Part shown: in pieces, positions 55,471-64,000 of the stretch | Numbering within the stretch: the stretch's first letter is position 1 | Layout: every line of letters starts with the position of its first letter | DNA from: Rhizoclosmatium globosum | Taxonomy: Eukaryota > Chytridiomycota > Chytridiomycetes > Chytridiales > Chytriomycetaceae | Assembly: GCA_002104985.1 (NCBI GenBank) | Contig: MCGO01000066.1 | Span: 62,001-126,000, forward strand | DNA: 64,000 nucleotides | Reading direction: 5' to 3' | Notes under the pieces: model-generated | What the model was told of the DNA's origin: nothing | The model's database searches: none | What the model saw: the letters and a program-made list of their open reading frames with translations, nothing else | Program-made: the position numbers and the translations under genes

Positions 55471-58400
55471 TCAATTATGCGATTCATTTTCATTCGCTGA
55501 ATTTTGGTTTGTAGGCTGCTGGCTTTTAGCTGAATCTCGCGGTGAATCAAATTGTTGCATTTGTCGCATATGTGTCAAAGACTCGAACTGTAAGTGTTGT
55601 GACGTGGGTCGAGATACGTTTCTTCCCGTAGGAGCTCTCAGCGATTGTATTCCTACGTGATGATTTGCACCGGGTACTAACAAGACTGGGTCTGCATGAA
55701 GGTGCGTGTTCGAATGAATGAAGCTTCCAGCCATTGATGGCTTTCGATTATGTTGTCCAGCTGATGCCATACTGGGCTCAAGACTTCGTACCTGAGATCG
55801 AGCTAATATTTGATGGACTTTGAGTTTGAGGTAATCAACAAACTTTGTGAGATCCTTGCCACAACGCTCAAATACCATAGGTATCAATGGATCTTTTCGA
55901 GTTTTAGGTTTATAATCTTAAGTTAAAATGCATTGTACCTTCATATTTGATGGCCACTTTTATAGCTTTCGCTTCATCTTTGTCAAACATCTTCAGCTTC
56001 TTGGCGGAGTCAATGGCCATGTCAAACTTTTTCCATTGGGTCTGCAGGGAGAAGCATTAATTTAGCAGGTGATAATTTCCGGAACTTACCGCTGAGAAAC
56101 CATTTTTGGATCCAGAATTGTGATAGATGTTTACTTGACTTGCTCCAACATTGCTTGCCCCTGTACTGATCAAACTTGAATCACTTATTGCTTTTCTAAG
56201 TTGACCTTCGTGCACTTCAGCTTCGATGTTGTTATCGTCTGTCTCTTCGTCACCAAACGCTGCGAAGAACTGTTTCAGCTCAGCCTCCTTTGCCTTTCTT
56301 TGAGCTTTGTTTAATCCTGCCTTGTACTTAATCACAAAAATTGCATAGCTTAATACAGACAACCCAAGGGTTATCCCCAAGATTGCTGCTGACAATGTAT
56401 CATTCAGCTGATGTCTTAATTGGTAGTCGTTTACAGATATTAGAAGCTCCAGGACAAACAAAACGAGGCAAACAATTGAGCAGTAAATGTACACCCCGCC
56501 GCGGAAATAGTTGAACCAGAATATCTCGTTTGGCTGACCAAGAAACGAACCGGAAGCCATAAACAATAACAGACAGAAGGTGACACCAAGGAAGTTGATG
56601 TTTTTCAAGTTGTAGTAGAGGATTAGCATGAACGTTTTAACGACAGAGTCCACATAAATCTGCCAATCCTCGTCTCGAAAATCAAATTGTTTTCGAAGCA
56701 TCTGTTGTCATCTGTCAGAACTCAGCGAAACGACAAAACAAATCATACCTTCAATACTTTTGAATACCGAACCACAAAATTTGTGAACGTGCAAACTAAT
56801 ACAAAGCTTACGATAGCTGTGCCCCAATGGCTCTTTTCCCAACAGAAATCGTGATAGCTGTTAAGATAATCCCACTCCAATGTTGACAAACGACAATCGA
56901 ATATCTTGATGAGCAATTCCACGCTTGGGTTATACATTATAACGGCATAGTTCGGTAAGAAATCAGCAAGAACCATGTGGAAAATTGTCATCTTGAACAA
57001 CGTTCTTGGAGAGTATTTTTCGATCAGAACGTATACATAGTTTGTGTAAACCATGCATAGAATCCAAATGAAGACTGTGAAATTTAAAATAACGTAGTAA
57101 GGATAGAGATCTGGAATGATTCCTAACCAAGACACAACTTCAAGATAAACATTGTGCTGAATCGCAACTGATCGAGTCATACAGAGATACAAGATTTGAA
57201 AGCAAGTTATATACTGTGTGATTATACCAAGGCGGTTTTGAAAGCTGAAGGTAACTTTACCGGCTTTCCGTGCAGCGGCTTCCTCTTTATCCTCTTCCAA
57301 GTCATCATCGGCATCATCAGAACTTCCTACAACAGAACCAGTTTTGATACTCTGAGTCAAATTATTTTCTTTGGTCTCTCCATGTGAACTGCCCCCGTGA
57401 GTAAAATATCGGAACATATTAAACCCAAACGGAAACAAATTGCAGCATATTAACGCAGCATAAAATACAAGATAGAGCCCAGTGCTTATTGGAGAAGATT
57501 TGTATTTGATTGAGTTTTCCCAGAAGGGAATAGCATTGTCCCATTCAAATTCTTCAGTCTCTAAATAACAACATTAAAAAACGAGAGCCACAGCGAGTAT
57601 AAACTCAACTATTTGCATAGAAATCAATGCGATCAATTTCTACATCCAGCTCATCAGCCACATTGCGTCGATTACAAGTTATCAACATCAAAGCCTCAAT
57701 ATTTTTCTCAAGAAGCCGGCCTGCAATTGGGACCCCACCATACTCCATATTCTTGATTTGCAGTTGTATGTTAGAAAAGTAAAAGTAAAAAAAGTACACG
57801 AGGGCCTTAATGCGATCGCATTCAACGTCACTTGCCGATTCATCGTAATAGTAGTGCTCCCTCAAAAGCGCATAAGACAATATAGAAATTGGGTAAGCAT
57901 TAGGAGCGTTGATATCAAATATTGAAATGTAATTATGCCTGCTGAAAGGCGTCAGTTTCGCAACCGCTTCCATTCCCGCAACTACGTAGTCATTTTCTGG
58001 ACTTGTGGCCGTTCGGTTTGCATTTATAATTGAGGCTTTTGTCGTGGGGATTCCAAGCAACTTTGCTTGTGTAATGGTCTCCATTGGAATATATGAAATG
58101 GAATATTGGAGTGAATTGAGCATGTACACGAGTTCAATGGCAGAGTTGCCAATGGCGAATGATTTGGGCCATTTTGGGGTTGAAGTAACACCTATTGTTG
58201 AGTAATACTTTTTGGAATACTTGTACACATATGCACCAAGCATAGAATTGGTTGCGGAATTATCACCTCTTGCAATGACGTTTATATTTTCAGCAGGTAA
58301 CGTTACGTCTGGATTCAGGGCTTGCAAACTGGGATCGTTCCATTTACTTATGGCACCGCAGAAAATGTCTCCCAAAACAGATGCATTCAAGGTGAGTTGC

Positions 58401-59075
58401 CTTTTGGATGGTAATCCTGGAATGCTGGAGGAACTTGAGCTTTGTCAAATATATAACGAAGACTTACTTGTAAACAACCCCAAGGGCTCCGCCCATGACT
58501 GTGGGATTCAAGATTAGGCAAAAAACCTCCAATAATGCGTTACCTGGCATAATAATATTTCCAAGGTGAGCGGGTGCCCTCGAATCAACATACTGCGACA
58601 CATTCTTCAATCCAGATCCATCGTCGGGTAAAAAGTACTTCAAATCTCCTTTTGAAACATCTGAATCAACACCTCCAAATAAATTATACCCATGGAAAAA
58701 ATCCGACAGCCCAACAGCATTACTTGCTGGTACATATTCAAAGTCAAACGTGTAACCAGACTGTTGTTGCAAGATAAAGTTCGAAAAACCAATGAAACTT
58801 CTTTGCCACGCGTTTTGCATCAGGATTGACCCTGATGCATTGACGTAGCGATGCGGTTTTTCAGGATGAGTGAAGTTTGGGCTTGATTCGTCAACTTCAG
58901 CGGAAAGGAAACTAGACACAATCGCTACAGCAGCTATTGGAAGCAATACAAGCGCAAGGAGTCGCAATTTAAGTTTCAAAGGAATTCCGTTGGATTCCGA
59001 GGTTTTCAACGGCGGGATATTTCCGTCAGGTTTTAGTTTGGATTCATGAAGGTTGCTGTCCTTGAGTGAATTCAT
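55471..59075 (-). CDS. PstS-like binding domain fused to multi-pass membrane domain, copy 1
   Basis: Six exons (59075-58468, 58439-57610, 57560-56749, 56701-56090, 56041-55939, 55892-55471) encode 1128 residues. A cytosolic N terminus and TM1 (about 33-57) lead to an extracytosolic domain of about 400 residues resembling the phosphate-binding PstS protein: ASVLGDIFCGAISKWNDPSL, QALNPDVTLP, VIARGDNSATNSM, STPKWP, YSISYIPMETITQAK. About seven membrane spans follow (500-880), with conserved FNYFRGGVYIY, DCRLSTLEWDYLN and CWEKSHWG segments, then a cytosolic tail with a Lys-rich helix and a low-complexity Gln/Ser/Asn end. The architecture is that of a venus-flytrap receptor. The ligand is unknown; anion sensing is a guess from the PstS similarity. 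The downstream paralogue is at 61005-64000. Confidence 0.85.
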
Positions 59076-59251
59076 ACTGTTTGGGAAACAAAGAAGATTT
59101 TGACAATAGATTGCAAAAACAATGGGATAAAATACAATGGCGTTTTGTATCCTCGGATTTAATAAGAGATGTCAGAAATTTATTGAATGGAAAAGAGGGA
59201 GGAAATTTACAGCTGGCGATCTAGCCGGAAGATGTCGTCTGGATTAAATAT

Positions 59252-59802
59252 TCAAATATCATTTTGTGACTGAGGTGTTTCTAATGTGGTGGATTTTGGA
59301 GTGCTCTTAGTTTCACTGACAGCCTTCGACCTACTTCGTCTACTCACTCTACCTACTGCAGTACTTTTTTCCTGGACATCATTCCTCCACAAAGCCCATT
59401 TCATTGCACACAAGATGCAATACGTCAAGAAAAAGAGAACATGAGTCATGGTCTGGAAAGGTGATGCTCGAACAACACAATGAACGAACTTTCCATTGCG
59501 CGGATATACTCTATCTATTATACCACCTGCGCGTTTCCTTCCAATATGATAGTAAATATCTGAAAGCGACGGTCATCTTAAACAAATCCTCACCAAGAGT
59601 AATAAATGTACGATGTTTCCATAGCTGAAGTCGAAGTGAACAAGAATAAATTACATCCGATGGCACGTCTATCAATGCGAGGATCAATTCCATCTTTGAA
59701 GCAATCTATGTCTATTTCAAAACGTTTTCCTTGTGATATCAAAAGTCCCAAGATGGAAGCTCCGCATAGCAACAGTGCAACGTTGAACGGAGCGGATGAC
59801 AT
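59252..59802 (-). pseudogene. Truncated seven-TM gene relic
   Basis: This matches the intact gene at 59888-60886 only in two pieces. The first (SAPFNVALLLCGASILGLLI to METSYIYYSW) corresponds to TM2-TM3, with the same splice after TCT TG. It is joined through a GGAAG acceptor to KRAGGIIDRVYPRNGK, then directly to the last span and tail (THVLFFLTYCILCAMKWALW). TM1 and TM4-TM6 are missing. The frame is still open, so a short two- or three-span product is conceivable, but an internal deletion and 5' loss are the simpler reading. Confidence 0.7.
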
Positions 59803-59887
59803 GAATCAGTCTTGAAAGATTTACAAAGAAAATCAACAATTGAATCCATATTTAAAAAGTATCCCATAAATCCTGTCCAGTCATATT

Positions 59888-60886
59888 TTATGTGATACTC
59901 TTTTGCGGTAAAGTAGCTGGCATTTTCCGCAGTATTGCTCCATCCAGCTCAGGGTGCCCACTTCCATGATGTTGAGAATCGCAAGATGGCGCGGTCTGTC
60001 CTCGACTACTTTGCTTCCGCTTTTCTTCGTTCCAAAGGGCGTATTTCATGCCAAAGAGAACCCAAAAGACTCCAAGCAAGAATAGTTCGACTAAAAACAG
60101 AGGACCATCCCAGTCAGTTATAACGAACATGACATAGAAGAGGAGAGAGCAAATAATAAGGAGAACAGAAGCAATTCCATATTTTGAGATAATCATGAAG
60201 CGTTGATCAGGCTCATGCGAGGCTGCTTGCTTTGTTGTTTGGACGAATTTGATAAATGCAGATATGAGGATTATATCTACAGTGACTGTGAGGAGCCCAC
60301 ACACAGACGCAATTATTGATAAGATTTTGCTCGCTATAATCGTGACTTCACGTGAAGGGAATATCAACCGAGCAAAGAGAGGCAAAAGCTGGCAATAAAA
60401 AGCCACGGGAGTGCAAAGCACAAGGTACCTGATAATCTTTTCAGTATTTGGGAAAACTGCATCAAGAATTGGACCAGCTCGCTTCCTGCGAACACAGTCT
60501 TGTCAGTTGATTAACCCGTTTAAAATTCATTACCAAGAATAGTATAAATACGATGACTCCATTGTTGCTGTGAATATATACTTCAGCACGTTGTTGAGCA
60601 ACGCAGTTCTGTCAAAGTTATAGTCTGACCCTGACAAGTGACATCCTATCATGATTTCATACGTTCTTCCATCCAAAATCAAGAGTGCCATCAAAGAAAC
60701 AATATAAGACATTAATGAGATGTTGAAAGGAGAATATCGTGCGTCAACTCGTTCAGCTTCGACAATGAACACCAACAGTGCCAGAAGGCCAAGTAAACCA
60801 AAGCTTCCGGTTACATAATATAGATTCACATAAACTCTAAGAGATCCATCGTTTGGTATTGGCGAGGTAGCATTAGCTGCCTCCAT
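59888..60886 (-). CDS. Seven-TM receptor-like protein within the receptor cluster
   Basis: Two exons (60886-60534, 60485-59888) encode 316 residues from ATG 60886 (MEAANATSPIPNDGS, one N-glycosylation site). Seven spans are visible. Family motifs shared with the pair at 40.2-42.3 kb are YYSWKRAGPI after TM3 (the intron falls inside this Trp codon), IISKYGIAS before TM6 and MKYALWNEEKRKQSS after TM7. The tail is Ser/Gln-rich. It lies 118 bp from the stop codon of the PstS-like receptor copy 2, on the same strand; the whole 55.5-64 kb cluster is co-oriented. No catalytic motif is visible. Confidence 0.8.
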
Positions 60887-61004
60887 ATCTCGGAAGAACT
60901 TTGAAACAAGAGATTTACGTTTATTACTGGCCGAATAAAAGGATACATATGCCATTGTTGAGTTGTGAAAAATATTAAAAATTAGAGAATAGCATCGTCT
61001 TGAT

Positions 61005-64000
61005 CTAATCGTTTTTGGGGTGGTGTGCGATAAAGACTTGACTTCCTCCACCATACTCACTTGGTGCCTTTGAAAAGGCGCTGGGCCTCATACCGGCCCC
61101 GTCTTTAGCCTTTGCAAGAACTTGAAACACTTTCCGCTTCAAGTGATCCCTGAGAGGATATTTAATAACGCCCAACAGACCCCTTATGTACTCACACAAG
61201 TTTGTTCACATCTCTTCCACATCTGGAGAACACTAAGGTAATAACAGGATCTGACAGAAAGAAAATTCATTAATTTCAACAAAATTTCAAACCATTTATA
61301 GAAACCTTGGGCTTTGATAGCGAGTTTAATGGCCTTGGCCTCGTCTTTCGTCAGCATATTCGCTTTCTTGGCTTTATCAATGACCGTCTCGATTTTGTTC
61401 CAAAAAGCAGGACTGACACTGTGCTGGCTAGTGACACTGCCAAATTGTCTCGCCACATTACCGCCCTGCACACTCCCAGCGCCTGATTCAGCCGCTGATT
61501 TAAGAATTTCGGAGTCATCACCATCAAAAGCCGCAAAAAACTTTTTCAAGTCCTCCTCCTTCTTTTGCTGTTCAGCTTTAGTCAGTCCGGCTTTATACTT
61601 TGCTCTGATGGTAAGGTACAAAGTTGCACATAGAGCAATAGCTGAGACCAGGATAGCCAAACAAAGAGGCTGATAAATTGCCGTTCGTTTCTCATAATCA
61701 TCCTCTTTGACAATAATTTCCAGAACAAACAGGATGAGATAAACCGCCGCACTGTATAAATAGATTCCGCCGCGGAAATAGTTGTACCAGTAGATAGTAT
61801 TGGGTTTTCCAATCAATGAGCAGAGGGAGAGTCCAACGAGAAGTACGAACGTAAGACCTAAGAAATACACATTCGGAATGTTGAAGTAGAGGATAACCAT
61901 GAAAGTTTTGGCTACTGAGTCTACGTAGATACACCATTCCTCATCGATTAGGTCGAATTGCTTTCGCAGATGCTGTAATACTGGCTTAATGAAATTGATG
62001 TCAAGAAAACTTCAATACCTTCAAAATCTTGCTAAATTTAACCACAAAGTTCGTGAACGTACAAACGAGAACAATCGCCACGATTGCCATGGACCAATGC
62101 GCTCCTTCCCAACACGTGCCTACTAATTCGCTATGATATTCTCCATGGTGCGTGGACAATCGACAGTCAAATACTTTGGAAAGCATTTCGACACTTGGAT
62201 TGTAGAAAATGACGGCAAAGTTGGGCAAAAACTCCGCAAGGAATGCATGAAACTTTGTGAGACTCATGAGTTTTTGCGGATAATACGTTTCCATGATCCC
62301 GTGTCCGTAAATTGTATAAAACATGCATACGATCCAAATGAGGACAGAAAAGTTGAGGAGAAGGTAGTAAGGGAACCAATCGAAGATCAACCCGATATAA
62401 CTGATGATGTCCAAGTAAATGTTCTTTTGAATCACGGTGGATCGCGTCAAGCAGAGATACAAGACTTGAAAACATGTGAAAAACTGGGTGACGATTCCCA
62501 ATACATTTTGCAATGTGAATGGAATCTTGCCAGCTTTCCTCGCTGCTTGTAGTTCTTCTTGCTCTTTCAGATCTTCCAACTCGTCTTCGTCGAGCTCGTC
62601 GTGAGGAACCGAACTTCGTTTTATGTTTTCGCCAGTTTGAACTTCACTGTCGTCTGTATGCGAGACAGACTGTTCGGAGAGGTATCGCTTCATATTTAAA
62701 GCAAAAGGAATGGCGTTACAAAGGATAAGACTTGCGTAGAATAGTATGTACAGGAATGAGCTTATTGGTGATGCAGCAAACTTGTCGTGATTGTTCCAAA
62801 ACGTCACTGAAGTCTCCCATTCATATTCGCTTGTTCCTATATATATTTTTCAGCATCTTTGGTTGAAGAAAATGATCACTCAACTGTTGGTGTAGAAAGC
62901 AACTTTCTCTAAATCACCCATCAGCTCTTCCATTACGTTGCGACGATTACAGGTAATCAAATTAAGCGCCTGTAAATTTTTCGACAAGGTGGTACCAGCA
63001 ATAGGGACAGCGCCAATATCCGTAATATCTTGGGAAACTGTTGTGTCAGTGAAGACGAATTGGAAGAAATAGACCATCGCCTTCACTCGATCGCACTCAG
63101 ATTGATTTCCAGGGCTGAAATAGTAATAATTCTCTCGTAAAAGCGTGTGAGATACGACGGTGATTGGATAAGCACTTGGTACGTTAATGTCAAATGGTAA
63201 TATAAAATTGTGTCGAGTGAAGGGAAGATTAGACGTCATGCCTTCTATCGCTGCAATCACATTGGTTGGCTGTGGAGCGCTGAGGGTCTGGTTCGCATTG
63301 ATGACGAGTGCGATACTAGCAGGCAAACCCAGTGTCACAGCTTGTTTCACAGTTTCTATCGCTATATAAGCTATTGCATATCGTAGCGTAGAAAGTGTGT
63401 AAACCATCTCAATCGCGGTATATGCCAACGTCGTCCCTTTCGGCCATTTTGGGAAAGCAGAAGCACCAACCATTTTTTTGAAGGTAGTTGAGTACTTTCC
63501 GAGATACAGACTAAGTATTAAGTTTGTGGGCGTAACATCTCCTCGCCTAAATATTGATTTCATTCATCCATCAGTCAATGCGGCGATAGATAAACACTGT
63601 CATCACATACCCAATCACTCGAATGGTTTCGTTTGGCAAATCAACGTTGGGGTTCAGAGCCTTTATTGCCGGATCATTCCACATTGTTATCGCTTGACAG
63701 AAAATGTCGCCCAACACTGGTCCGTTCAGAACCAACTGCTTGTCCTTTGGGAAACCTGGAATATTGAACGCGATTCCAACAGCTTGGCCAATAAACGGGA
63801 TCAAAATATTTCCATAATGGGCAGGAACTCGAGGATCGATGTACTTCGTTGCATTTGAAGGCAGACTATCGTCATCTGGAAGAAAGTACTTTCCATCGTC
63901 AGCAGATACATCAACGTCAGTTGCAGCAAAAAGATTATAGCCCGCAAAGAATTCAGATTGACCAAGTGTGTTCGATCCTGGCCGGAAATCCAAATCAGGG
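61005..64000 (-). CDS. PstS-like binding domain fused to multi-pass membrane domain, copy 2 (partial)
   Basis: A tandem paralogue of the gene at 55471-59075 whose N terminus runs past the window edge. The binding-domain part has NGPVLGDIFCQAITMWNDPA, KALNPNVDLP, FPKWPKGTT and YAIAYIAIETVKQA. An exon join near 63548 replaces the RGDNSATNSM region of copy 1 with RGDVTPTNLI. Membrane spans follow from about 62780 to 61600 with ASPISSFLYILFYASLILCN, WYNYFRGGIYLYS, DCRLSTHHGEYHS and CWEGAHWS. The cytosolic tail contains KYKAGLTKAEQQKKEEDLKK and FWNKIETVIDKAKKANM, and the last exons (61260-61005) end HHPKND, lacking the Q/S-rich end of copy 1. Exon borders match copy 1. Confidence 0.83.

Follow-up and report, generated by a model that had tools for sequence, protein, structure and literature searches.

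The window analysed here, a stretch of 64,000 nucleotides of the chytrid fungus Rhizoclosmatium globosum (C384:62001-126000), raises the question of what is encoded by two neighbouring genes that join a domain resembling bacterial PstS to a multi-span membrane module. The protein was found to consist, in this order, of an N-terminal anchor helix, the PstS-type domain, a module of seven to nine spans and a conserved tail. The explanation that we favour, with confidence a little short of even, is that the genes encode cell-surface ligand sensors in which the PstS-type domain is combined with a lineage-specific membrane module, most likely for the sensing of oxyanions. A preliminary description of the locus had reported two co-oriented paralogues in a zoosporic fungus; the host is of that kind and both genes lie on the minus strand. 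Their features, in window coordinates, are given below; proteins of the same family from the databases carry P numbers.

59075-55471, minus strand: whole coding sequence of copy 1 including the stop codon (gene model, identity to P0001, comparison with the duplicate on contig C388)
59075-58544, 58498-58468, 58424-57610, 57560-56749, 56701-56090, 56041-55939, 55892-55471, minus strand: exons of copy 1
58899..58979, minus strand: N-terminal anchor helix of copy 1, residues 33-59, N-terminus predicted inside by charge (hydropathy and flank charges; helix 32-58 in the P0001 model)
57620..58859, minus strand: PstS-type (type II periplasmic-binding-protein) ectodomain of copy 1, residues about 73-456 (Pfam, PDB profile, TIGR00975, Foldseek)
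58250..58270, minus strand: ligand loop RGDNSAT of copy 1, aligned to R135-T141 of E. coli PstS (alignments)
56321..57492, minus strand: membrane module of copy 1, residues about 483-857, with an acidic loop after the first helix (hydropathy, AlphaFold models, charges)
55801..56101, minus strand: tail domain of short helices of copy 1, residues about 931-999, with two introns within (alignment, model helices)
61005..64000, minus strand: readable part of copy 2 including the stop codon (96.3% identity to P0002 residues 72-1018)
(64119)-63611, 63546-62885, 62836-62019, 61972-61306, 61250-61196, 61149-61005, minus strand: exons of copy 2
63525..63545, minus strand: ligand loop RGDVTPT of copy 2 (alignments, gene model)

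The outer domain is, by sequence comparison, homologous to bacterial PstS, and the PstS motifs recognised in the preliminary description reflect real homology. P0001 scored 34.2 bits against Pfam PBP_like_2 (PF12849, cut-off 27), and this family was matched at E<=1 by nine of the ten aligned members, with scores over the cut-off in P0001, P0005 and P0006 and slightly under it in P0002 and P0003. The NCBIfam PstS model TIGR00975 matched P0001 at 4.2e-36 and was covered over positions 1-289 of 315 in P0003; the scores of all five proteins scanned were under the equivalog cut-off. A profile search of the PDB gave 26 sequences at E<=0.01, named as phosphate-binding, DING or alkaline phosphatase chains, with the best PstS at 6.3e-31. 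The structural match to periplasmic-binding proteins that the preliminary description had named as a check was found both in this search and by AlphaFold modelling followed by Foldseek, where phosphate-binding proteins occupied ranks 1-18 for the P0001 model (E 2.7e-9 to 9e-7). The domain forms a single contiguous stretch ahead of the membrane module and contains two cysteines that are present in all ten members.

The ligand pocket was examined by aligning the ten members to E. coli PstS, whose numbering is used for the residues that we take to be its phosphate contacts. D56 was kept in all ten members, R135 in eight and D137 in eight, with glutamate in one other, while serine or threonine occupied the position of S139 in nine. 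The full R-x-D-x-S-G-S/T loop (R135-T141) was present in half of the members (P0003, P0005, P0008, P0010 and P0011); P0009 has glutamate in place of the aspartate, the loop is altered in P0001 and P0002, and it is lost in P0004 and P0006. The two window copies differ from one another in this loop, as had been noticed previously (RGDNSAT versus RGDVTPT). This series of changed loops across the family makes ligand diversification more likely.

The topology was assessed from hydropathy, charge distribution and structural models. The anchor helix of copy 1 is flanked by four basic and one acidic residue on its N-terminal side and by one basic and three acidic residues on its C-terminal side. In the module, seven helices were strongly hydrophobic (mean 19-residue Goldman-Engelman-Steitz (GES) hydropathy of 1.4-2.0) and two were weaker, one at residues 650-667 (0.91) and a marginal one at 742-760 (0.1-1.3 in single proteins), so that the earlier count of about seven spans was a fair one. 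Both AlphaFold models (P0001 and P0008) contained all nine module helices in the same order, and in P0001 these spanned residues 482-514, 565-587, 611-641, 650-678 (broken), 702-731, 742-760, 763-784, 790-816 and 822-856. The excess of basic residues inside over outside, counted on six of the ten proteins (P0003, P0006, P0010 and P0011 were left out as incomplete), had a mean of 18.0 for nine spans, 13.5 for seven and 11.2 or 6.7 for eight. Readings with seven or nine spans place the tail inside, while eight would not, and the distribution of basic residues favours a predicted topology with the ectodomain outside and the tail inside. The ectodomains contained 59 sequons compared to 45.9 +/- 6.0 in shuffled sequences (10 of 500 shuffles were as high), while the numbers elsewhere were near or below those of the shuffles (13 versus 18.5 in the module and 16 versus 17.6 in the tail). 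Cysteines C681 and C698 were found in all nine proteins that have this stretch, in a loop that would lie outside if there are nine spans.

Several polar or charged residues lying within the membrane or close to it were strongly conserved (H653, N662, E673, K677, S748 and K751 of P0001), and an FFAAF-like motif behind the last module helix was conserved. The mean pairwise identity was 51% for the module and 41% for the binding domain (seven of the ten proteins; P0005, P0010 and P0011 left out), a sensor-like pattern with variation at the ligand end and a constant membrane end. Behind the module the preliminary description had seen a long charged tail; the charged sequence is present, and a conserved helical domain is found there besides. 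Pfam contained nothing over cut-off for this tail domain (best E 0.0047), and all 23 of its matches in the genome fell in loci of the window family.

The module itself did not resemble any known receptor or transporter in the sequence searches made. The Pfam scan of the ten members gave no family below E 0.041 besides PBP_like_2, and neither 7tm_3, which was absent among the 12 families listed, nor any other G-protein-coupled receptor (GPCR) model matched any of them; the same 7tm_3 model does detect class C modules elsewhere in the R. globosum genome. A profile built on five modules, starting at their second helix, matched no PDB sequence at E up to 10. The possibility raised earlier that the spans form a known transporter found no match, as no recognised transporter module or ATPase was detected in Pfam, NCBIfam (five of the ten proteins) or PDB sequence searches. 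Class C membership of the module was rejected on sequence, with an hhalign value of 0.14% against a profile built on seven class C modules from this genome and 7tm_3 in none of the ten members. An ionotropic glutamate receptor type was also rejected, as the binding domain is contiguous and lies before the module and is not split by pore helices.

The genome (56.9 Mb in 420 contigs) was searched with two module sequences, which at E<=1e-3 revealed only 16 loci, all of the window family, and one further match at E 0.35. All 16 loci also encode a PstS-type part, and with these two sequences the module was not found joined to any other ectodomain in this genome. Among the 16 the tandem pair occurs three times, further near-duplicates are present, and about eight loci are distinct in the binding-domain tree. 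In the protein database, where the best 7995, 7920 and 7993 candidates were scored, the family occurred in Rhizoclosmatium, Obelidium, Siphonaria and Entophlyctis, all of them Chytriomycetaceae; the Siphonaria records are labelled UNVERIFIED_CONTAM by NCBI, and an occurrence wider than Chytriomycetaceae is possible. A literature search, which mostly did not extend to subscription journals, gave no paper treating the window family by title or abstract. None of the sources searched describes the module, while the general idea of joining a PstS-type domain to a receptor in the membrane was already known.

Copy 1 comprises seven exons separated by six introns of 43-49 nucleotides and encodes 1108 amino acids, with 98% identity to P0001 (HDU79_007358 of Rhizoclosmatium sp. 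JEL0117) across 100% of the length. Copy 2, oriented the same way and located upstream of copy 1, has its end at 61005; 951 amino acids are readable, using 119 bases beyond the window, and these are 96.3% identical to P0002 of R. hyalinum and 49.6% identical to P0001. Beyond the window copy 2 is cut at 64120/64121 by an element of long terminal repeat (LTR) type that starts at window position 64121. This element (C384:126121-154529) measures 28.4 kb between its outer edges, its ends of 1091 bases (C384:126121-127211 and 153439-154529) are 100% identical, and its flanks share a 4-base overlap, as expected for an insertion of this type. The insertion has deprived copy 2 of its start and its anchor helix at this locus. 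The anchor that the preliminary description had assigned to each copy therefore holds for copy 1 and is absent from copy 2 here, while P0002 carries it. The part of copy 2 missing here is held by duplicates on C388 and C133, which match P0001 from residue 12 onward. Near-identical LTR-type ends were seen on C257, C62, C90, C87 and other contigs.

The whole locus is present three times (C384, C388 and C133) at about 93-98% identity, as alleles or segmental duplicates; C388 is 97.6% identical over 9.1 kb, and C133 matches in pieces at 93-96%. Copy 1 differs from its C388 duplicate by 32 synonymous and 6 non-synonymous changes, with no insertion or deletion in the exons; the ratio of non-synonymous to synonymous rates (dN/dS) is 0.05, which is strongly purifying. 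The readable part of copy 2 gave 48 synonymous and 13 non-synonymous changes against C388 (dN/dS 0.073), and the comparison with C133 gave dN/dS values of 0.12 for copy 1 and 0.164 for copy 2. The C133 version of copy 1, close to the contig end, has small deletions in four exons. Both window copies are real genes under purifying selection, and a chance origin is excluded by the E-values together with the 32 synonymous versus 6 non-synonymous changes between copy 1 and C388. Between the copies lies a further gene resembling a seven-transmembrane (7TM) receptor (59888-60957, minus strand; exon 2 at 59888-60502) that has no Pfam match over cut-off. Its exon 2 has at least 148 genome matches at E<=1e-3 among the best 150 of 263 candidates, indicating a very large orphan 7TM family, and a fragment at about 59252-59830 is likely a relative of this gene.

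The same genome contains a second set of proteins with PstS-type domains. Of its 26 PBP_like_2 matches, 10 are in the window family and 16 lie at other loci. Fourteen of these 16 are followed on the same strand, within 2 kb, by a 7tm_3 match, which in one case was under cut-off, while the loci at C53:5340 and C247 had no 7tm_3 among the matches listed. In the two C223 genes and at C82, the PstS-type domain, a cysteine-rich linker and the first class C helices follow one another within a single open frame. This linker of the class C fusions, here called group A, appears epidermal growth factor (EGF)-like. Among 15 rows aligned, the R-x-D-x-S-G-S loop was kept only at C82. Loci with a PstS-type domain and a class C 7TM module downstream lie on C223, C7, C53, C368 and C82. 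The genome has at least 139 matches to 7tm_3 among the best 150 of 163 candidates, duplicates and split exons included, indicating a very large class C repertoire.

In a tree of 48 rows, group A and the window family each formed a branch of their own, with support of 100/100 and 97/91, respectively. A branch with weak support (87/46) in the same tree set these two together apart from the bacterial sequences and P0007, and grouping the window family with the bacteria was not rejected (p-AU 0.281). The bacterial rows are few and the branches long, so that either one or two recruitments of the PstS domain may lie behind this pattern. A donor search of bacterial genomes gave five loci out of 106 pattern matches, all from actinobacterial metagenome bins by title, and we claim none of them as the donor. 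P0007, a protein of 1427 amino acids from another eukaryote, combines an RGS domain with several hydrophobic helices and with PBP_like_2 in two stretches, which ties a PstS-type domain to G-protein signalling.

Several comparable proteins have been described in the literature. A chytrid Glutamate-family GPCR, SPPG_06488, has PBP_like_2 (Krishnan 2012; PMC3251606), and a 2016 Plasmodiophora paper described PBP_like_2-7tm3 fusions, which were read as transporters with phosphate as the proposed solute for some (PMC4815078). PBP_like_2 is also among the domain names of an amoebal GPCR paper (PMC10445921), and roughly 100 class C GPCRs were reported from gut fungi, of which about half carry a type II binding domain (PMC5168858). 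The independent receptor-type fusion proposed in the preliminary description stands as a receptor-like fusion with a domain predicted to lie outside. Its novelty does not stand, as PBP_like_2 on 7TM modules is published in two of these papers (PMC3251606, PMC4815078) and class C fusions occur in the same genome; the module alone is unlike these and not detectably class C. A 2025 classification of fungal GPCRs is built on Pfam models and a seven-helix filter, and the window family would probably escape it (PMC12842992).

For the mode of action we infer a signal driven by closure of the binding domain. The two PstS-type lobes would close around an oxyanion, which in members with an intact PstS pocket would be phosphate or a similar anion; members with a changed pocket, such as both window copies, may bind other small ligands. 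Closure could pull on both attachments of the domain, the anchor helix and the first module helix, and the pull would shift the putative seven or nine spans of the module, whose basic inner loops might, together with a presumably cytosolic tail, relay the signal to partners in the cytosol. Such signalling would plausibly operate in zoospores. A single open frame of 861 amino acids in the C46 paralogue contains both the binding domain and the membrane module, which establishes the fusion without reliance on splicing. The sensor reading is also favoured by the class C receptors of this genome that bear PstS-type domains and by the lack of any other ectodomain on the module among the loci found.

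A number of observations count against a sensor of this kind. Both window copies themselves are without parts of the phosphate pocket, and the P0008 model retrieved phosphate-binding proteins at Foldseek ranks 1-9 only at E 5.8e-3 and weaker. The span count is not settled, with nine best by charge and seven next. The AlphaFold models, made from an alignment of 10, are weak (mean predicted local distance difference test of 52.7 and 52.0; predicted template modelling score of 0.39 and 0.42), so that the module could not be placed in any fold. Receptor function would be read from the architecture, because the module has no identified relative, and a binding domain delivering phosphate to a transporter would look similar. 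PstS in bacteria serves uptake, and an uptake protein or transceptor, in which the PstS-type domain captures phosphate or another solute and hands it to a transporter or channel module, is a rather unlikely alternative that several features would nevertheless suit: the nine spans preferred by the charges, the strongly conserved polar and charged positions within or close to the membrane and the interpretation that the Plasmodiophora authors gave to their own fusions (PMC4815078). The module, however, matched no transporter in Pfam, NCBIfam (five of the ten proteins) or PDB sequences, Foldseek with the two weak models gave transporters only at E 0.8 and above, and the pocket is highly variable on a constant module.

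Comparable and similarly low weight is given to a very diverged GPCR, of class C or another class, with a sequence past recognition. The seven strongly hydrophobic helices, a seven-span reading that also leaves the tail inside, the fusion of PstS-type domains to class C modules in the same genome and the combination of PBP_like_2, helices and RGS in P0007 are consistent with it. Against it stand the absence of 7tm_3 and other GPCR models from all members and the hhalign result, and the seven-span reading leaves the basic loop 725-741 outside, fitting the charges worse than nine spans, while the first inner loop is acidic and about 55 residues long. That neighbouring PstS-like and membrane genes were wrongly joined in the gene model is highly improbable: the window introns were placed by eye, but gene models made by others for other species show the fusion (P0001-P0006, P0008 and P0009), the C46 paralogue has both parts in one frame, and the C388 duplicate has kept the exons free of indels at its low dN/dS. 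The sensor remains our preferred explanation. The further proposal that its module is a new class of ligand-driven signalling protein, unrelated to GPCRs and arisen in Chytriomycetaceae coupled to a PstS-type sensor, is possible but held with distinctly more doubt.

If the module is indeed unrelated to GPCRs, one fungus would have two receptor systems based on PstS whose membrane halves are unrelated, and the design of a bacterial binding protein plus a membrane module would have been reached more than once within one genome. To our knowledge, phosphate receptors of the eukaryotic outer surface are poorly known, and the window family provides concrete candidates, as several members have a recognisable phosphate pocket. 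The natural series of changed pockets on a constant module makes the ligand range directly testable.

When the window family was compared with known systems, the closest resemblance in the ectodomain was to bacterial PstS (PF12849, TIGR00975), the entire ectodomain being homologous and the full loop being present in five of ten members. The family differs in being eukaryotic, tethered to the membrane at both ends and without importer parts in the protein, in scoring under the equivalog cut-off in all five proteins scanned and in the altered pocket of several members, including both window copies. The PBP_like_2-class C fusions (SPPG_06488, Plasmodiophora and group A) likewise have an outer PstS-type domain followed by a multi-helix module, but theirs is 7tm_3, to which the window-family module is not detectably related, and the window family has an anchor helix and a tail domain of its own where group A has the cysteine-rich linker. 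Gut-fungal class C GPCRs are also found in zoosporic fungi and also have a type II binding domain joined to a receptor in the membrane, although their domains are described as sugar-type and their module as class C (PMC5168858). In ionotropic glutamate receptors, too, a type II binding-protein fold is attached to a membrane part, but there two non-consecutive chain segments make up the fold (PMC5168858), whereas that of the window family is uninterrupted. With class C GPCRs in general the family shares a large outer venus-flytrap domain, which in the window family is type II in place of the usual type I ANF domain.

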